59,114 nucleotides of DNA from a bacterium (GCA_021777215.1 JAJYDS010000005.1:1-59114); one strand, 5' to 3'; shown: positions 43,796 to 53,329, counted from the first letter of the stretch. Made by a program: numbers and translations. Notes: generated by a model from the sequence alone, not told the origin.

Positions 43796-44848
43796 CTATC
43801 GCATTAATGTTTCGCGGAAAAATTCCAAATTTTCCACCGCTTTTCCCGCACCCTTGACCACACAAAACAATGGATCCTCTGCAACACGCACCGGCAATCC
43901 AGTCTCTTTGGCAATCAAACGATCAAGACCGCGCAATAGTGAACTACCACCAGCCATAACAATACCTTGGTCAACCAAATCAGATGACAACTCTGGCGGC
44001 GTATTTTCCAATGCGATACGAATTGTATCGATTATGCTTGCTACGGTTTCCAACAATGCTTCGTTTACTTCTTGAGCCGTGAGCGTCACCGTTTTTGGTA
44101 CGCCTGTCACCAAATCACGACCTTTTACCTGTACTGAACGTTTGCTCAGTTCTGGATCAAGCATCGCTGAACCAATCTCTATTTTGATCTGCTCGGCAGT
44201 ACGCTCACCCACTAACAGATTATATTTTCTTTTAACATATTGAACGATGGCACGGTCCATTTCATCGCCGCCAATCCGCACCGATTTACAAAACACCACT
44301 GATTTAAGTGAGATAACAGCAACTTCGGTAGTGCCGCCCCCAATATCAACGATCATATTACCAGATGGCTCTTGCACCATTAATCCTGCGCCGATTGCTG
44401 CCGCCATAGGTTCCAAAATAGTATGCACTTCGCGCGCACCCGCCTGACGAGCAGCATCCTCTACCGCACGTAATTCAACCTGGGTAATACCCGATGGCAC
44501 GCCAATTACCATACGCGGTCGCACTAAAGTACGTCGATCATTGTGCACCGAACGAATAAAGTGACGCAACATATATTCAGTTAACTCTAAATCAGTAATA
44601 ACACCGTCACGCATAGGACGACACGCAACGATATTTTCTGGCGTTTTACCCAACATTTCTTTTGCTTCCTTACCAGCAGCCAATACCTGCGATGTATGGG
44701 CTCGCACCGCAACAACGGAAGGCTCATTAAGCACAACACCCTTGTTACGTACGTATACAACCGTATTTGCTGTGCCAAGATCAATTGCCACATCATTAGA
44801 AAAAATACTAAAAAGCCGCTGCGCGGGAAGAAATTTGAACATACTCAT
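43796..44848 (-). CDS. mreB: Rod shape-determining actin MreB
   Basis: Bacterial actin forming membrane-bound filaments that direct elongation. The 350-residue protein starts FSNDVAIDLGTANTVVYV (phosphate 1 loop), has VIGVPSGITQVELRAV, MIVDIGGGTTEVAVI (phosphate 2) and IVMAGGSSLLRGLDRLI (adenosine loop). The N-terminal amphipathic piece MFKFLPAQRLFSIF suits direct membrane binding. Order on the minus strand: outer-membrane protein, mreB, rsmA, GyrI-like gene. Confidence 0.97.
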   Translation of the reverse strand: MSMFKFLPAQRLFSIFSNDVAIDLGTANTVVYVRNKGVVLNEPSVVAVRAHTSQVLAAGKEAKEMLGKTPENIVACRPMRDGVITDLELTEYMLRHFIRSVHNDRRTLVRPRMVIGVPSGITQVELRAVEDAARQAGAREVHTILEPMAAAIGAGLMVQEPSGNMIVDIGGGTTEVAVISLKSVVFCKSVRIGGDEMDRAIVQYVKRKYNLLVGERTAEQIKIEIGSAMLDPELSKRSVQVKGRDLVTGVPKTVTLTAQEVNEALLETVASIIDTIRIALENTPPELSSDLVDQGIVMAGGSSLLRGLDRLIAKETGLPVRVAEDPLFCVVKGAGKAVENLEFFRETLMR

Positions 44849-44868
44849 GGTCAGACGCCCTTACGCTA

Positions 44869-46128
44869 CTAAAAACTAAATTCTACACCAAGCATAATGC
44901 GATTGGTTTTTACACTTCTTTCAGTCACAAACAATGATACAGGAATATCCCAGGTGAAAAAAAGCAATGGTTCAAATGATCGCAATTCTTTCATTTTTCC
45001 AAAATCATAAAAAGCCGTAAAACTAGCATAATCAGACCCCCAATGGGAGAAAGCTTCTGCCTGACAAAGATTAACAGGCACGCAACCGGTCGGCCGCGCA
45101 TCGCTCCAAGAGTCACGCATATGCTTGGTCAAGGTATAATCAACGCGAAGCCCTAATCCTCCACGTAAGCCCTCTATGGAAGCATACGGAGAAAAAATAA
45201 AGGTAACTCCCGGGTTAATACGCGCATTACCCTGCGCTACTCCAAAAATGCTTGGCTCCTGGGTAACCGGCATGCGCACCATTTTGGTCTTGGCAAACCG
45301 TTTATTGAGCCGCGCAAAAAGACCAACCTTGAAATCTTCTTTTGCTTCAACCTCTACATCAACCTGTCCATACATACCCCAAAAACCATCCCCGCCAAAA
45401 GGAATAGACGCCGGCATCGTCGGACAACGCGTCACGCCCATTGGTGCCAACAACCCTACGCGCATGCCCGTATCAATAGAGCGACACTTAAGTTCATAAT
45501 CCCAACGATACCCAACACGTGCATACAAATCAAAATCACTCGAACCTACCTGATGAGCATAATTCTGTTTAAAGCCAAGCTCCGCTAAAGCCTCGCGCAA
45601 TGCTTCATCAAGCGTAATATCCGTCAACATACTCCCAAAATTCATATTATTTCTGTCAGAAAAAAATTCTTGGCGGGAAGTTGAACGCATAACAAACCAG
45701 GTAAAGCCAAGCTGTAGCAAATCTCCCAATTGTTGTTGATAACCAAAGGCGGCACCCTGTGTTTGCAAATGTCCATCAACACGAAAAGGGATTTTTTGAT
45801 CCTGCAACTCACTTAATAATGGCGAAAGAGACATCTGCGCTATACCCATGGATTTAGTGAGCACCCCCAAATCAAACGGTCCATATATTTCGGGAATACC
45901 CAAAAAGTCATCGCCCTGCCCAAAAGCCTGACTCGCCGTCATTGCAAACAACGCACCACGCACATGCGATGGACGATCGGCACAGGTAATGTATGAGCGC
46001 TGCAATAAAGGCATATACCGATTATCGTAGACCATGCCCAGCATGCGCTGCGAAAGCGCACCTACAAACATCACCACTACCACTAACCGTCTACTCATGC
46101 ACCAGAAATTGCTGTTTATTTTGCCCAT
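44869..46128 (-). CDS. Predicted outer-membrane beta-barrel protein
   Basis: A 419-residue exported protein. Residues about 11-32 look like a signal peptide (MSRRLVVVVMFVGALSQ). The body alternates short amphipathic strands with turns (LQLGFTWFVMRS, DFDLYARVGYRWDYELK, GLGLRVDYTLTKH), and the C-terminus NRIMLGVEFSF ends in Phe, the BAM recognition signal. No family recognised; size suggests about 12-18 strands. AGGG precedes the ATG at 46128. It lies upstream of mreB, 20 bp apart. Confidence 0.72.
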   Translation of the reverse strand: MGKINSNFWCMSRRLVVVVMFVGALSQRMLGMVYDNRYMPLLQRSYITCADRPSHVRGALFAMTASQAFGQGDDFLGIPEIYGPFDLGVLTKSMGIAQMSLSPLLSELQDQKIPFRVDGHLQTQGAAFGYQQQLGDLLQLGFTWFVMRSTSRQEFFSDRNNMNFGSMLTDITLDEALREALAELGFKQNYAHQVGSSDFDLYARVGYRWDYELKCRSIDTGMRVGLLAPMGVTRCPTMPASIPFGGDGFWGMYGQVDVEVEAKEDFKVGLFARLNKRFAKTKMVRMPVTQEPSIFGVAQGNARINPGVTFIFSPYASIEGLRGGLGLRVDYTLTKHMRDSWSDARPTGCVPVNLCQAEAFSHWGSDYASFTAFYDFGKMKELRSFEPLLFFTWDIPVSLFVTERSVKTNRIMLGVEFSF

Positions 46129-46599: not shown

Positions 46600-47766
46600 A
46601 TGAAAAATATACAAGCAATTGTATTAGCCGCCGGTAAAGCAACACGCTTTAATACCGGCACCACAAAACTCACACAAAAAATATGCGGGCAAGAGATGGT
46701 GCTCTATCTCACCAAACTCTTAACACACTTAAAAATACCGACAACCCTGGTCGTTGGCTATCAAAAAGAACAGGTTATGGAAACAGTAAAACGACAGCAT
46801 GAGCAAGCGGTTTCCTTTGTTACTCAAGAGGAGCAACTGGGTACTGGACATGCGCTCATGTGCACCAAGAGTCAGTGGCAGAGCGAAAACCTCTTAATTC
46901 TTAATGGCGACATGCCGTTAATCGCTGAAGATATCATCCAGGGCCTTTACGACAAACATTGCCAGACGCAAGCGGTGATGAGCTTCGTCGTTGCCCACAG
47001 CGAAGACCCGGCCGGCTATTCCTATGGTAGAGTTATTCAAATCGATGGCTCTTTGCAAATCGTTGAAGCAAAACATTTTGATGGCGATCCTCATGAACAT
47101 TGTTTTGTGAACGCCGGTGTTTATATTGTTTCACGTTCATTCTTGGAACAAGCTATCTCTGAAATTAAAAAAAATGAAAAAAGCAGAGAATTTTATTTGA
47201 CTGATTTGGTACAAATAGCAAGCAATCATAAAAAAACAGTAAGCACCACACTCGCTGCATTCGACCGTATTCGCGGCGTGAATGATCTCCAAGAATTGTG
47301 GGCAGCAGAACAAATCAAGCGTTCAGAGCTCATTCGCTACTGGATGAGCAAAGGGGTACGCTTTACCATGCCGCAAGCAATTCATCTTGACGTCCAAGTA
47401 TCGATCGGCGCAGGAACAACAATTAGTGGAGGCGTACATCTTGTTGGCAACTGTGCCATCGGCAGCAATTGTACCATCGGTGCATTTTCATCGCTTTCTG
47501 AGGCAACGATTGGCGACCAAGTAATGATAGAACCGCATTGCATTATCAGTGATGCAACCATAGGCGCCCATGCGCACATAGGCCCCTTTGCGCATCTACA
47601 CAATCAGGCCATTGTTAAAGAACACGCCCACATAGAGAGCTTTACCTATACAACCCAACAGGGCACTCACAAAGCAACCACGGCGCACCAGTATGTCAGC
47701 ACGGCTGAACAAAATACAACACCGACATCATTTCCCGGTGCTATAAAGCCACAAAAAGAGGCTTAA
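46600..47766 (+). CDS. glmU: GlmU-like protein with intact uridylyltransferase, truncated acetyltransferase domain
   Basis: A 388-residue GlmU paralogue (usual about 456). The N-terminal domain keeps the UDP-GlcNAc pyrophosphorylase motifs: IVLAAGKATRF, TQEEQLGTGHAL, ILNGDMPLI, YSYGRVI, the Glu in IVEAKHF, FVNAGVYIV and GVNDLQEL. The C-terminal left-handed beta-helix starts normally (IGAGTTISGG... IGPFAHLHN) but then turns into a Thr/Gln-rich tail, without the HLTYLG and NxGAGT acetyl-transfer segments. It should make UDP-GlcNAc from GlcNAc-1-P but not acetylate. AAGGAGGA precedes the ATG. The missing half is supplied by 49414-50637. Confidence 0.88.
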   Translation: MKNIQAIVLAAGKATRFNTGTTKLTQKICGQEMVLYLTKLLTHLKIPTTLVVGYQKEQVMETVKRQHEQAVSFVTQEEQLGTGHALMCTKSQWQSENLLILNGDMPLIAEDIIQGLYDKHCQTQAVMSFVVAHSEDPAGYSYGRVIQIDGSLQIVEAKHFDGDPHEHCFVNAGVYIVSRSFLEQAISEIKKNEKSREFYLTDLVQIASNHKKTVSTTLAAFDRIRGVNDLQELWAAEQIKRSELIRYWMSKGVRFTMPQAIHLDVQVSIGAGTTISGGVHLVGNCAIGSNCTIGAFSSLSEATIGDQVMIEPHCIISDATIGAHAHIGPFAHLHNQAIVKEHAHIESFTYTTQQGTHKATTAHQYVSTAEQNTTPTSFPGAIKPQKEA

Positions 47767-47774
47767 TAAAAAAC

Positions 47775-49010
47775 ATGATTCGCTTTATTCACACTGCCGA
47801 TGTGCATATTGGCGTCGAAAATTATGGCAAAATTGACAGCGCCACAGGCATGCACTCACGTCTGCTCGATTTTCATCGCGCATTCAGTTACTGCATTGAT
47901 ACGGCCATTGAAAAAAACGTAGATTTTTTTCTCTTTTCCGGCGACGCCTATAAAACAACACATCCCAGCCCCACTCAACAGAAATTGTTTCTCACGAGTA
48001 TGCTTCGCCTGTATAAAGCAGGAATACCCGTAGTAATTGTGGTTGGCAATCACGACAATCCGCTAAGCTTTGGTAAAGCAAACACCCTTGATATTTTTGA
48101 CGAGCTTCCATTTGAAGGCTTTCACGTTATTAAAAAACCAACCATTCTCAATCTCGCCACAAAAAATGGCCTCACACAAATTGTGGGCATCCCCTGGCCA
48201 ACACGCACAACCATCGCACTAACAGACTCGATCGATGAGCGCACCAGCAGCGATTTAACCGCATACATCAGCAAGGCAGTAAGCAGCATCATCGCCGATT
48301 ATGCGCAAAAACTTGACCCTGCACTGCCCGCCGTCTTGGCTGGTCACTTGACGGTGAGTTCTGGTCTTTTCTCTGGATCAGAAAAACGTGCCATCTATGG
48401 CACTGATCCACTTTTTCTCCCCTCGCAACTGGCTATAAGCCCCTTTGATTATATTGCGCTCGGTCACTTGCATCGCTATCAAAATTTAAATACAAACGGC
48501 ATTCCACTTATCTATTGTGGTTCTGTTGAACGTATTGATTTTGGCGAACGGAATGAACAGAAAGGCTTTTGCCTAGTAAGTCTTGAAAAAAAAGGTACCG
48601 CTTCGCACGAATTTATTCCCACACCAACGCGGCCATTTATCCAAATTGAGGTCATGATGCAGCCAGGAAAAAGTCAAACAGAACAACTGCTGCAAGAGAT
48701 GCGAAAAAAAACATTAAAGGATGCAATAGTAAAAATTATCTATCATTTGCCGCCCGATGAAAAAGATACGGTTGATTTACAAGTCATACAGCGTGCCGCC
48801 GCAGAGGCGATGCATATCGTAGATATTTTGCCTATCAGACAACAATCTACGCGTAAATATCGCGCCGCCGTCAAAGTCGATATGGATTTAAAAACACTTC
48901 TGGAACACTACTTTAGCGCCAAGCCTGAATTGGCTACCAAAAAAGATACGCTTATTGAGAAAGCGCTCGAGTTATATCAAGAAGCGCAGAATGCGGCTGA
49001 AGAAAAGTAG
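47775..49010 (+). CDS. SbcD/Mre11-like DNA exonuclease
   Basis: A two-metal nuclease of the SbcD/Mre11 family, 411 residues. Motifs: IHTADVHIG (D-x-H), FLFSGDAYKTT (GD), VVVGNHDNP (GNHD), LAGHLTVS (H) and ALGHLHRYQ (GHxH). The C-terminal cap domain follows, with a long helix at the end. SbcD normally works with the SMC-like SbcC ATPase on DNA hairpins and breaks; no sbcC is in the window. It starts 8 bp after glmU paralogue 1. Confidence 0.9.
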   Translation: MIRFIHTADVHIGVENYGKIDSATGMHSRLLDFHRAFSYCIDTAIEKNVDFFLFSGDAYKTTHPSPTQQKLFLTSMLRLYKAGIPVVIVVGNHDNPLSFGKANTLDIFDELPFEGFHVIKKPTILNLATKNGLTQIVGIPWPTRTTIALTDSIDERTSSDLTAYISKAVSSIIADYAQKLDPALPAVLAGHLTVSSGLFSGSEKRAIYGTDPLFLPSQLAISPFDYIALGHLHRYQNLNTNGIPLIYCGSVERIDFGERNEQKGFCLVSLEKKGTASHEFIPTPTRPFIQIEVMMQPGKSQTEQLLQEMRKKTLKDAIVKIIYHLPPDEKDTVDLQVIQRAAAEAMHIVDILPIRQQSTRKYRAAVKVDMDLKTLLEHYFSAKPELATKKDTLIEKALELYQEAQNAAEEK

Positions 49011-49163
49011 CTCAACATAACCGCACACAATAGCATCTTTTTACGCACGACAGCAAATGAGTTTGATTCCAAAAAAATCTTTCCAATGCTATCGATCTAA
49101 TGGCGCTTGCAAAACACATTCCCCCCTGCTAGGCTACAGGCAAAAAACCCTAAAGGAACCCTC

Positions 49164-49413
49164 ATGAAAGCACTATGAACTCCTGCTGTGCACGCTCATC
49201 AGTTGCAATCTTAGCCGCACCATAGATGATCTGTATAAAAATAATATACAAGCAATCCTGCTAGCGACAGAAAATAGCAGTGATGCCAACACAAAGCCAC
49301 TTTCCCTGCTAAACAAAGTATGTGGCCAGGAACTTATTACCTATCCCCTTACCCTTCTTGCTGCGCACGCAATCCCCACAACCATAGTAGTAATACCGCC
49401 AGAACAAGAAGCA
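49164..49413 (+). pseudogene. Upstream coding remnant of the second GlmU gene
   Basis: AAAGGA (49152-49157) is ideally placed for the ATG at 49164, but that frame stops after four codons (MKAL). The frame that continues into the downstream protein is open from 49168 and encodes, from 49243, NNIQAILLATENSS and NKVCGQELITY, aligned with NIQAIVLAAGKATR and QKICGQEMVLY of paralogue 1. It contains no ATG, GTG or TTG before 49414. Either a single-base shift near 49167-49176 broke the start, the sequence has an error, or a non-standard start is used. Confidence 0.65.
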
Positions 49414-50637
49414 ATGACCGCACTTATTACACGCAACTTTAACACAACATCCATCACCCAAATCCATCAAGAAACTCCGGAAGATATAACAGTCGCGCTC
49501 GCCAAAGCGCTTGAACAACCACAGGAATACATCATTATTATGCATGGCAATCTTCCCCTGCTTGAGAGCACCGTGCTTATGGATGCATTACAACAACACA
49601 TAACCCAAGAAGCAACACTGACCACCGTACAAGCCCACAAGCCCACGTGCACAGTACAAACAACCGACTTGAGCACGCAACAAGAGCCAGAAAAAAGCCG
49701 CACCACAAACACACAGCTCTTGCCAACCCCTACTGCAGCACGCACGGCAACCAGTATGGGCTTCTGTATAGTACGTAAAAGTCTTATCGCGAAAATGCTC
49801 GCCAATACTACACCAGAATCATTATCACAACCATGGTTTATAGCACTTATAGCAACAGCGCAAGAAAATAATCAGGCAATACAATCTTTCCGTGCACCAG
49901 CAACAACCATGTTGAGCGTTATAACCATGCGCGACTTGAACAGCGCAACAAAACTGCAATGCGCGAAACTGATCGACTATTGGATGCAACGGGACGTCAT
50001 ATTCACCGATCCGGAAACTGTACACCTTGATACAAGCGTAAGCATCGGCGCACAGACGACCATTGGCAGCAATGTCCACATCACGGGAAATACGAGTATC
50101 GGCGTCCAATGCCAAATTCACAACTTCTCGCAACTACATGACGCAAAAATAGGAGATAAGGCAAAAATATTTTCGCACAGCGCACTCAATCAAGTAATGG
50201 TGGGCGAACTCACCGAGGTTGGGCCATTTGCGCACCTGCATAACGCCGTCACCGTCGCCGATCACAGCGCCATTGGCAATTTTGTAGAAATTCAACAAAG
50301 CAGTGTTGGCGCATACACCAAGGCCCGTCATCTCACCTATTTGGGACATGCACGCATAGGAAATCGCGTCAACTTTGGCGCCGGCACAATCACCTGCAAT
50401 TATGACGGCCGCAATAAAAATACCACTACAATCGAAGACAATATCTTTATCGGTAGCAATAATACGCTGGTAGCACCCATAACTATTGGCAAAGGCTCAT
50501 TTACCGCGGCCGGCTCAGTCATCACCCAATCGGTACCAGAAAACACCTTTGCAATAGGCCGAGCTCATCAGATAAACAAACTTGATTATGCACAAAAGCT
50601 TCGCGAAAAAGTACAAGAAAAAAACAAACAACAATAA
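49414..50637 (+). CDS. glmU: GlmU-like protein with acetyltransferase domain, degenerate uridylyltransferase
   Basis: The first ATG gives 407 residues; homology begins about 57 codons earlier. The N-terminal domain has lost its catalytic motifs: the GTGHA region reads EDITVALAKAL and NGDMPL reads HGNLPLL. The C-terminal beta-helix is complete: IGNFVEIQQ, RHLTYLGHARIG with the catalytic His, NFGAGTITCNYDG with the conserved Asn, NKNTT, FIGSNNTLVAPITIG. Compared with E. coli, the sugar-binding Arg333 position is His (FAHLHN) and Lys351 is Gln. It should supply GlcN-1-P acetylation. Together the two genes would make a full GlmU pathway. Confidence 0.85.
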   Translation: MTALITRNFNTTSITQIHQETPEDITVALAKALEQPQEYIIIMHGNLPLLESTVLMDALQQHITQEATLTTVQAHKPTCTVQTTDLSTQQEPEKSRTTNTQLLPTPTAARTATSMGFCIVRKSLIAKMLANTTPESLSQPWFIALIATAQENNQAIQSFRAPATTMLSVITMRDLNSATKLQCAKLIDYWMQRDVIFTDPETVHLDTSVSIGAQTTIGSNVHITGNTSIGVQCQIHNFSQLHDAKIGDKAKIFSHSALNQVMVGELTEVGPFAHLHNAVTVADHSAIGNFVEIQQSSVGAYTKARHLTYLGHARIGNRVNFGAGTITCNYDGRNKNTTTIEDNIFIGSNNTLVAPITIGKGSFTAAGSVITQSVPENTFAIGRAHQINKLDYAQKLREKVQEKNKQQ

Positions 50638-50716: not shown

Positions 50717-51841
50717 TTACTGCTGTTTAAGTGTGTTTTTAGTTTTGCCAGTATAAGCATCCGCTGCTTCTGAATCTGTCGTTTTTTGCTCTTGTCGCAG
50801 ATAGACTATTGATGCAGAATCAAACAAAGTTTTTTTATACTCAGCCATTACTTCGTCATATTTTGGTTTACGAAGGATATCAACAATTTCGCGATAACGA
50901 TCTTCTAGCGGCGCTAAACGCTCACCCTTTTTATCGACAAGTTTCACTACTTCATAACCACTATCAATTTCTTGCGGTTCGCCGATGGCGCCAACAACCA
51001 TGTCTATAATAAAACGCTTACTCTCGGCTAAGTCACTTTGATCCACCCAAAAAGAATCTTGCCATTCAAGACCAATTCCTTTAAATGATGCCAACTCTTT
51101 ACGTAACTCCTGTTTGCTCGCAGCCTTTGCATAAGGTATAACCGCGCGCTGCACCTGATAACTCGGCTCAAGCATAACGGGGTTTGCCTCATAATAGGCG
51201 AGCACATCTTTTTCCGGAACAATCAAACGCGAACGAATTTTAAAATCAACTACCGAATTAACCGCATACATAATGCCAAATTGCTCGCGGCCTTCTTCAT
51301 ACGTATATCCCGATGCTTTAAACACCGCTTTCAACTCATCAAGAGTCATATTATTTTGCCGCTGCACAGTGGCCAAATGCTTATCTATGGCTTCTTCATC
51401 TGCTGTCATTTTATATTTTTTTGCATCGAGAAAGAGGAGACGTTCAAAAATTGTTTCATCTAACGTACGAGGCGCGCCCTCAAGCGTTGGCCTATTCAAA
51501 TCTGATTGAGTAATTATTTCCGTGCCCTCTTGTGCATAGATAACCACTACAATATCATCAACCGGATAGAGTGTTTTATTTTTTAAAAGGTCAGAACTTT
51601 GTACAACTTTATTTTTCTCTGCGGACACACTCTTTTTTCTGTCGACTTTTACTTTTTTAGATTGGGAATCTTTTTTGCTCGCCGCCACCGACTCTTTTTT
51701 AGGAGAACCTACTGCCTCAACAGCATCCGATGTCCTGACAAGCGTTTTCTGCGTTATAGGAGCTTCTGCGCTGCTATGAATACTCAAGCAACCGGTTATC
51801 GTAACTACAAGAAGACATACGAGCACATTTATTTTTTTCAT
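50717..51841 (-). CDS. SurA-like peptidyl-prolyl isomerase/chaperone lipoprotein
   Basis: A 374-residue envelope protein. The signal peptide ends in a lipobox-like ITGC, so Cys18 may be lipidated. A Lys/Ser-rich low-complexity linker (about residues 40-85) follows. The folded part has the SurA N-domain pattern: ITQSDLNRPTLEG, DETIFERLLFLDAKK, MTADEEAIDKHLATV and NNMTLDELKAVFKASG. The C-terminal region resembles a degenerate parvulin domain. AGGGA precedes the ATG at 51841. Expected role is escort of outer-membrane proteins. Confidence 0.8.
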   Translation of the reverse strand: MKKINVLVCLLVVTITGCLSIHSSAEAPITQKTLVRTSDAVEAVGSPKKESVAASKKDSQSKKVKVDRKKSVSAEKNKVVQSSDLLKNKTLYPVDDIVVVIYAQEGTEIITQSDLNRPTLEGAPRTLDETIFERLLFLDAKKYKMTADEEAIDKHLATVQRQNNMTLDELKAVFKASGYTYEEGREQFGIMYAVNSVVDFKIRSRLIVPEKDVLAYYEANPVMLEPSYQVQRAVIPYAKAASKQELRKELASFKGIGLEWQDSFWVDQSDLAESKRFIIDMVVGAIGEPQEIDSGYEVVKLVDKKGERLAPLEDRYREIVDILRKPKYDEVMAEYKKTLFDSASIVYLRQEQKTTDSEAADAYTGKTKNTLKQQ

Positions 51842-51957
51842 AGTCGCATCCCTTAAGCACAAGCCGCTCATTTACCACTAACAACACTCTGTTTCCTGGG
51901 AACGAATCACTTTTGATATAATACTACCACACTTTCTCCGCTCGCACCCGACACAAA

Positions 51958-51988
51958 GAAAAAGGGGAATGTGCTAAGCACATTCCCC
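51958..51988 (-). terminator. Terminator of the PrsA/SurA-like lipoprotein gene
   Basis: GGGGAATGTGCTTAGCACATTCCCC on the minus strand (51964-51988; 11-12 bp stem), followed by TTTTTC. It lies about 30 bp past the stop. Confidence 0.93.
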
Positions 51989-52020
51989 AAAAGAATACTC
52001 TTTTTCAGTATCTTTGTAAA

Positions 52021-53079
52021 TTAAGCAGCTTTTGCTACTGCCGCTTCAGTGGCTTGTTCAGCAGATTGCGCAGCAGCTGTTTGTGCGTCAACTGGTTGTT
52101 GTTCAGCTTGCGCAGCTTGTGCTGGTTGAGCTTCTGGTTGTGTTTGCTCTGCAGGCTTTGCTTTGAAGTACTCATCGCTGATTACGACTTCGTACTCTTT
52201 TTTCAATTGATCAAGAGCTTCGCCGATAACTTTTTTACGTTTCTCGTGCGATACGTATTGTTCAAGACCAGCCTTGATTTTATCGAATGGTTGATATTGT
52301 GGTTCTTCTTTTGCTGTTGCGGCAAATACCCAGAAAGTCTTGCCATCAGCAGATTTTACCATATCATGTGCAGGGAATTTCTTAAGTTCCAAAACCTTGT
52401 CACGCAATGCGGTGTCGATACCCATGGTGTATTGATGTACTTGTTTGAAATCACGTACATTTTTTGCCAAGTTCAACGCTTTGGCTGTTTTATCAAGATC
52501 TTTAAACTCTTTCATTTTTTCCAAGAAGTTTTTAGCAGCTTCTTGTTTGTCAAATGAAATTGCTTTTGTTTTCACACCGCCACGAGAAATCATCAAATCT
52601 GGCAACACATCTTTGTTTTTTTCGTAGAACTCTTTCAGTTCTTCGTCTGTCACTTTGACAGGATAAGCTTCACCAAAGTACTTGGAGTTAACGATATGTT
52701 TCGCATTGGTCATCATGCGTTCCATATCTTTTTTATATTCTTCTTTTTGATCAACTTTGGAATCTTTTGCCCAGAAATCAACCAACTCTTGGTTTACCAT
52801 GCCCATGAAAACATCTTTTTTCAAATCAGGCATAAATGATAATGCAGCTTTATATTGTGGATTCTCTTCGAGGAACTTATTAAATTCTTGTTCAAATTTT
52901 TGTGCCGTCATTAAGGGTTTACCTTTGAGCGTCACCAAAACTTCATTGCCTTCGGCAACCATCTCTGAACCGGATTTTTTACCTAAATGACCCTTAAGCC
53001 ATTCCCATGGTTTGCAGCCAGCAAAAAAAATAACAGGCACTACCAATAGCACCACCGACAATTTTGTCGCAACCTTCAT
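52021..53079 (-). CDS. PrsA/SurA-like peptidyl-prolyl isomerase lipoprotein
   Basis: A 352-residue protein starting at 53079 (AGGA 6 nt upstream). The signal sequence ends in the lipobox FFAGC, so it should be a lipoprotein. The N-domain has VLVTLKGKPLMTAQKFEQEF and MGMVNQELVDFWAK, then VTDEELKEFYEKNKDVLP before a parvulin-like region (ISRGGVKTKAISFDKQEAA). The tail from about residue 310 is Ala/Gln/Pro-rich and likely disordered. It pairs with the adjacent SurA-like gene as a periplasmic folding system. Confidence 0.8.
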   Translation of the reverse strand: MKVATKLSVVLLVVPVIFFAGCKPWEWLKGHLGKKSGSEMVAEGNEVLVTLKGKPLMTAQKFEQEFNKFLEENPQYKAALSFMPDLKKDVFMGMVNQELVDFWAKDSKVDQKEEYKKDMERMMTNAKHIVNSKYFGEAYPVKVTDEELKEFYEKNKDVLPDLMISRGGVKTKAISFDKQEAAKNFLEKMKEFKDLDKTAKALNLAKNVRDFKQVHQYTMGIDTALRDKVLELKKFPAHDMVKSADGKTFWVFAATAKEEPQYQPFDKIKAGLEQYVSHEKRKKVIGEALDQLKKEYEVVISDEYFKAKPAEQTQPEAQPAQAAQAEQQPVDAQTAAAQSAEQATEAAVAKAA

Positions 53080-53329
53080 GATTTTCCTGTCCTCACCTAT
53101 AAAAAGGGTTAAACGATGTACACTTTTCAGATCTATAAGAATACCTGTTTCCAGAACAAAAGATACTCTACCATGTTCAGCCAAATATGCAATACCAGAG
53201 ACGAATGGACTAAATAATACTTAGGACAAACCCGTCTAAACAAATATTTTCATATAACGCTATCTTCGCGAAAAAAAAATGCGGTATGATGAACGCGGTA
53301 AAATAACCGTATACGAGAAAGGAGAATGT

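Follow-up and report, generated by a model that had tools for sequence, protein, structure and literature searches.

Bifunctional GlmU (TIGR01173; E. coli GlmU, PDB 1HV9/2OI6) is a drug target and the textbook example of a fused enzyme, and normally makes the cell-wall sugar uridine diphosphate N-acetylglucosamine (UDP-GlcNAc) in two steps. Single-domain pieces of the E. coli enzyme have been engineered and solved, namely the 331-residue N-terminal piece (1FWY/1FXJ) and the C-terminal domain (4AA7, 3TWD), and our literature search, within the collection of papers covered, returned nothing about natural splits of GlmU or about the enzyme in Dependentiae. Here, we describe a 59,114-nucleotide stretch of DNA (JAJYDS010000005.1:1-59114 in GCA_021777215.1; the window) from an intracellular Candidatus Babeliales/Dependentiae bacterium, in which the two activities of GlmU are, at the level of sequence, divided over two genes on the plus strand, glmU1 (46600..47766) and glmU2 (open frame 49168-50637), the latter a duplicate that has diverged, its uridylyltransferase half dead and its acetyltransferase half intact. 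Both products are homologous to bifunctional GlmU over most of their length and keep one active site each, but each lacks one activity by motif, and both score under the family cut-off of 366.85 in NCBIfam, with 280.2 bits for GlmU1 and 288.7 bits for GlmU2. The domain boundaries of GlmU1, and those of acetyltransferase-only copies in relatives, are near-identical to those of the engineered pieces. In contrast to these, the division here is natural and between separate genes, and the unused half has decayed or been deleted.

Two other described systems bear on the locus. In Chlamydia trachomatis, glycogen enzymes (PMC4829429) and the phosphoglucomutase CT295 (PMC9251005) are reported to be secreted into the inclusion, where housekeeping sugar-phosphate enzymes equipped with a secretion signal use host sugar metabolism outside the bacterium. 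That case concerns type 3 secretion and glycogen and was demonstrated by experiment, whereas our case concerns an amino-sugar route and Sec-type signal-like N-termini read from sequence. The obligate intracellular Rickettsiaceae lack GlmS and GlmM, and an alternative route or an importer has been suggested for them (PMC5814848). Amino-sugar synthesis is incomplete and the mur pathway present in both groups, but in Babeliales the loss also takes the acetyltransferase half of GlmU.

The division is most evident in the active sites. Among columns conserved in at least 95% of 42 intact full-length relatives, GlmU1 retains 38/38 in the nucleotidyltransferase part and 3/26 in the acetyltransferase part, and GlmU2 retains 13/38 and 25/26; judged by these residues, GlmU1 would be a uridylyltransferase and no acetyltransferase, and GlmU2 the reverse. 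This bears out what a first, sequence-only reading of the locus had claimed, that gene 1 has all uridylyltransferase motifs without the acetyl-transfer segments and that gene 2 has an intact acetyltransferase beta-helix without the uridylyltransferase motifs. Median identities to relatives are 50.6% for GlmU1 and 22.4% for GlmU2 in the nucleotidyltransferase part (intact copies among themselves 49%), 49.1% and 35.8% in the shared helix segment (47%), and 18.4% and 58.7% in the acetyltransferase part (about 61%). A complete glmU elsewhere in the genome, against which that reading was to be checked, is absent from the 91.9% complete assembly, in which MurA is found. GlmU1 and GlmU2 between them carry each GlmU active site, probably in two compartments and as two homotrimers.

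GlmU1 is a protein of 388 amino acids with a full Shine-Dalgarno (SD) sequence (AAGGAGG) ahead of its ATG, comprising a nucleotidyltransferase domain and a shortened left-handed beta-helix, and it matches positions 2-350 of 452 in the NCBIfam glmU profile. Its structural model (predicted local distance difference test, pLDDT, 86.9) is ordered to about residue 355, with a disordered tail thereafter, and among solved folds the model comes closest to GlmUs, one of them the engineered uridylyltransferase piece of 331 residues. The beta-helix had been claimed to end early, and the acetyltransferase coils are indeed gone. However, this is no simple truncation: the tail carries TSFPGAIK (window 47720-47763), the SFxGAxK motif typical of full-length relatives, so that the coils were lost internally. 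Near the C-terminus, SFxGAxK is present in 35/49 full-length canonical copies (those in the slot beside sbcD), 8/17 acetyltransferase-less canonical copies and 0/13 extra copies (chance about 1%); canonical GlmUs of the order conserve this tail, also when they have no acetyltransferase coils left. By motifs and model, GlmU1 is probably the cytosolic, uridylyltransferase-only orthologue of the order's single GlmU.

GlmU2 is longer than first read. The sequence-only reading had placed its start at 49414, but the frame is already open from 49168, starting KHYELLLCTLISCNLSRTIDDLYKNNIQAILLA, and the 82 added codons comprise a degenerate nucleotidyltransferase start (NIQAILLATENSS...KVCGQEL) and a hydrophobic, by hydropathy signal-peptide-like extension of about 25 residues (KHYELLLCTLISCNLSRTIDDLYKN; 49168..49242) that canonical copies do not have. 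The degenerate nucleotidyltransferase half follows at 49243..49980, its frame open and its catalytic residues gone, with changes that include G14E, R18D, K25S, D105N, E154N, N169S and N227I (E. coli numbering). In the acetyltransferase beta-helix half (49981..50637), His363, Tyr366, Asn377, Asn386, Ser405, Ala423 and Arg440 are present, and R333H and K351Q fall at sites that vary within the order. His333 had been held noteworthy, but His occurs in 10/49 full-length GlmUs of the order and Arg in only 23, and we dismissed R333H as a special feature. Arg333, moreover, belongs to the acetyltransferase (glucosamine-1-phosphate, GlcN-1-P) site and not to UDP-GlcNAc binding. A structure search with the GlmU2 model (predicted template modelling score, pTM, 0.47) gave low-quality matches only, which were discarded.

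Is GlmU2 still a working gene? The 271 codons of extension and decayed half were stop-free in 0/20,000 composition-matched simulations, which speaks for production of the protein having lasted until recently. An ATG at 49164..49166 (plus strand), with an SD-like AAAGGAA upstream, runs for 4 codons only in its own frame. It is probably the original start, its frame broken as assembled, and the break could stem from the assembly or from a recent mutation, or it could mean that a start further in is used. Alternatively, GlmU2 could be a pseudogene in early decay, with a frameshifted start and only traces of selection on its acetyltransferase half, next to a GlmU1 of the salvage type frequent in the order, so that nothing is divided. 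Such decay would account for the SD-equipped ATG being out of frame with no other good start at hand, and for the 22% identity of the nucleotidyltransferase half to relatives, and it agrees with the acetyltransferase-less state being common by itself. We nonetheless consider it quite improbable, given the 25/26 acetyltransferase columns, the normal identity of that half (58.7%, against 60.6% among intact copies), the frame that stays open through the fast-evolving half, and the chance that the one base near the start is an assembly error.

What, then, accounts for the loss in GlmU1? The majority of the 101 genomes of the order that we surveyed have one full GlmU, beside sbcD. In the 88 genomes (16 + 72) on which acetyltransferase and GlmS were compared, 16 have only an acetyltransferase-less GlmU, with no partner and usually checked to lie in the sbcD slot. 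GlmS is missing in 15 of these 16 versus 13 of the 72 acetyltransferase-bearing genomes, 59 of which have GlmS (P about 1e-8, uncorrected for kinship), and the exception, G013, has a GlmS with Ser replacing the N-terminal catalytic Cys. A tree-based test found 5 supported independent pairs, about 4.8 of them as expected with G013 counted as GlmS-lost (3.9 otherwise) and 0 opposite. This tie between the acetyltransferase half and GlmS is what the pathway predicts, as no substrate is left for the acetyltransferase once glucosamine phosphate is missing. On the tree, acetyltransferase loss in the canonical slot takes 7 changes, without any GlmU2. Because the same loss recurs in the order alongside GlmS loss and without GlmU2, that in GlmU1 can be accounted for without GlmU2 as well, and GlmU1 fits with the order's acetyltransferase-less series. 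Separately, uridylyltransferase motifs are gone in the GlmU of G021 and partly eroded in the full-length GlmUs L053, L054 and L057 (E154K/T, G140S/D and, in G001, K25N and N227S as well), for none of which a partner was found.

Seven relatives (G004, G005, G011, G015, G020, G026 and G028) have extra GlmU-derived genes, which are uridylyltransferase-only, acetyltransferase-only or, in G020, a uridylyltransferase-phosphomutase fusion. A hydrophobic, signal-peptide-like N-terminal extension of 20-40 residues is present in 12/12 extra copies versus about 2/65 canonical ones; the start of canonical copies lies 6-12 residues ahead of LAAG, apart from two copies of a single genus. The extra copies mostly have their own SD plus ATG or GTG, although our script found no SD for 2/12 and no start for 1/12. 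The extension of GlmU2 is of the same length class, with a maximal 10-residue hydropathy of 1.97 compared to about 2.0 to 3.3 in the relatives' extra copies, and would group GlmU2 with these export-type genes. G015 offers a second such pair, in which a full-length copy with an eroded uridylyltransferase motif (LAASTSSSF) coexists with a truncated copy whose motif is intact and whose N-terminus is signal-peptide-like. The fusion in G020 (L051:4757-7066) is a 770-codon frame with a signal-like N-terminus, in which a GlmU-type uridylyltransferase is joined to a phosphomutase, and in one genus the GlmU acetyltransferase domain stands alone, has a signal-like N-terminus and lies beside flippase-like genes (L045:4749-5525, L046:4922-5725, L047:4986-5822).

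GlmS shows a corresponding second type. Its hydrophobic extension, 21-27 residues in length, reaches directly to the catalytic Cys, which no Met precedes (L080, L085, L086, L124, L129, L139). Five relatives (G005, G015, G020, G026 and G028) have it, each next to a normal GlmS. In the genome of the window it is the sole GlmS, with a 27-residue hydrophobic extension to the Cys, no Met before the Cys, and a signal-peptide-like N-terminus that comes with an SD and a start of its own (L080, start region of contig C10). Outside the window's own genome (G000), export-type GlmS is restricted to genomes with extra GlmU copies (5/5, P 6e-4, phylogenetically clumped). Large-scale export is to be expected in this phylum, as signal sequences have been reported for 44% of the proteins of the cultivated relative Chromulinavorax (PMC6561590). 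This order, in which the halves of GlmU have repeatedly been lost, set apart and, as it seems, redirected towards export, illustrates how the fusion comes apart.

We favour a reading, to which we assign a probability of about 0.5, in which GlmU1 is a cytosolic, uridylyltransferase-only enzyme and GlmU2 an acetyltransferase-only enzyme, probably of export type, whose partner is the GlmS of that type. GlmU1 would have lost its acetyltransferase half because glucosamine phosphate was no longer supplied by a cytosolic GlmS, as in other lineages of the order, drawing N-acetylglucosamine phosphate from salvage or from outside. GlmU2, which may not share a compartment with GlmU1 since it resembles the extra copies with signal-peptide-like N-termini, would do its work beyond the cytosol of the bacterium, be it in periplasm, vacuole or host, together with the single GlmS of the genome, which likewise has a signal-peptide-like extension. 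More tentatively, and with slightly less confidence, we suggest that a number of Babeliales may maintain an additional amino-sugar route, exported by Sec and located beyond the bacterial cytosol, consisting of GlmS with its Cys uncovered by signal-peptide removal, stand-alone GlmU acetyltransferase and uridylyltransferase pieces and one uridylyltransferase-phosphomutase fusion, each with a signal-peptide-like N-terminus. GlmU2 would be a member of this route, and N-acetylglucosamine-1-phosphate or UDP-GlcNAc would be made in host space. If the export signals work, these poorly known intracellular bacteria would place an essential cell-wall precursor route in their host. This would parallel, on the amino-sugar side, the glycogen enzymes secreted by Chlamydia and, if true, add a new way in which parasites exploit the sugar metabolism of the host.

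Several points weigh against the reading that we favour. The GlmU2 frame contains no ATG, GTG or TTG upstream of 49414, and the best candidate start, ATG 49164, is shifted by one base relative to it, so that the signal peptide of GlmU2 is read across a frame break; signal peptides were in general judged from hydropathy alone. Acetyl-coenzyme A is not expected in the periplasm, and an external role would need host cytosol or a supplied vacuole. The association between GlmS and the acetyltransferase was tested on only 5 independent pairs with support (P 0.06 at best in a sign test), and 13 genomes have an acetyltransferase but no detected GlmS. No true GlmM was found in the genome of the window, only a phosphomannomutase/phosphoglucomutase (PMM/PGM)-type mutase (contig C2:121609-122922); a strong GlmM match is absent also in nine other genomes of the order. 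The assembly, 43 contigs at 91.9% completeness, could lack a GlmS of the cytosolic type, a GlmM or a glmU. That same incompleteness would allow a complete glmU, or the missing parts, to lie in the unassembled 8%, which we regard as most improbable: the conserved glmU slot beside sbcD is already filled by GlmU1, and relatives show no full copy outside this slot, their extra copies being single-domain or partial.

Could both enzymes instead work in one compartment? In such a subfunctionalisation, a cytosolic GlmU2 would acetylate GlcN-1-P and GlmU1 would uridylylate the product, both being needed, as two homotrimers or a mixed trimer. The complementary motif retention at one locus, the presence of GlmS and MurA in the genome, and the solved single-domain E. 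coli pieces fit such a scheme, as does the pair in G015, with its eroded full-length and intact truncated copies; started from ATG 49414, GlmU2 would moreover have a whole acetyltransferase domain and no signal peptide. However, ATG 49414 has no SD, unlike GlmU1 and most canonical copies, the genome's sole GlmS looks export-type, GlmU2 falls in the extra-copy class with signal-peptide-like N-termini, to which the truncated partner in G015 also belongs, and partnerless acetyltransferase-less GlmU is frequent. We consider this arrangement unlikely. The mutual dependence of the two genes put forward by the sequence-only reading may hold within one compartment, but acetyltransferase-less GlmU recurs without a partner, along with GlmS loss, and GlmU2 is extra-copy-like. 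The acetyltransferase site of E. coli GlmU is formed by all three subunits. Since GlmU1 has lost the coils that contribute to this site, mixed trimers should impair rather than create activity, and we judge the heteromeric trimer suggested earlier to be unlikely.

The proposed origin of the pair, duplication followed by complementary decay, stands in part. Two paralogues at one locus with complementary active-site loss fit a duplication, as does the shared beta-helix segment, in which GlmU2 is closest to GlmU1 (44%; other copies median 36%, maximum 42.5%), and grouping the two on the tree costs no likelihood. The trees do not settle it, however: on three regions GlmU2 is a long branch without a resolved position, and tree tests are compatible with GlmU1+GlmU2, GlmU2+G003 and GlmU2+acetyltransferase-only copies alike. 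Long-branch attraction is the probable cause of a grouping with G021, whose uridylyltransferase is likewise dead, and a search of GTDB contigs with GlmU2 alone found no relative. In G005, a second, uridylyltransferase-only and export-type copy also lies in the sbcD-ppiC gap and is sister to that genome's own canonical copy, so tandem duplication has occurred here more than once. As the two G005 copies are sisters, an ancient tandem duplication common to G005 and the window genome is unsupported.

The window is contig C36 of the 1.2 Mb genome. Its order is mreB, an outer-membrane-like gene, glmU1, sbcD, glmU2 and two PpiC/SurA-like genes, compared to mreB-omp-glmU-sbcD-ppiC-surA in relatives, by which glmU1 is in the ancestral slot and glmU2 is an addition. 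The mreB and outer-membrane-like genes (43796..46128, minus strand), 5' of glmU1, form the conserved flank that fixes the ancestral order. The exonuclease subunit gene sbcD (47775..49010, plus strand; TIGR00619, 145 bits) separates the two glmU genes and marks the ancestral slot, since it comes after glmU in almost all relatives. The two peptidyl-prolyl isomerase/SurA-like genes (50717..53184, minus strand) are the conserved right flank, which places glmU2 in the sbcD-ppiC gap. No sbcD or glmU remnants that matter were found in the stretch preceding glmU2 or between sbcD and ppiC in relatives, and promoter and terminator scans gave chance level only. Finally, an ATP sulfurylase-like frame (L049:6190-7881, minus strand) has a signal-peptide-like N-terminus, and may be a further housekeeping enzyme that is exported.

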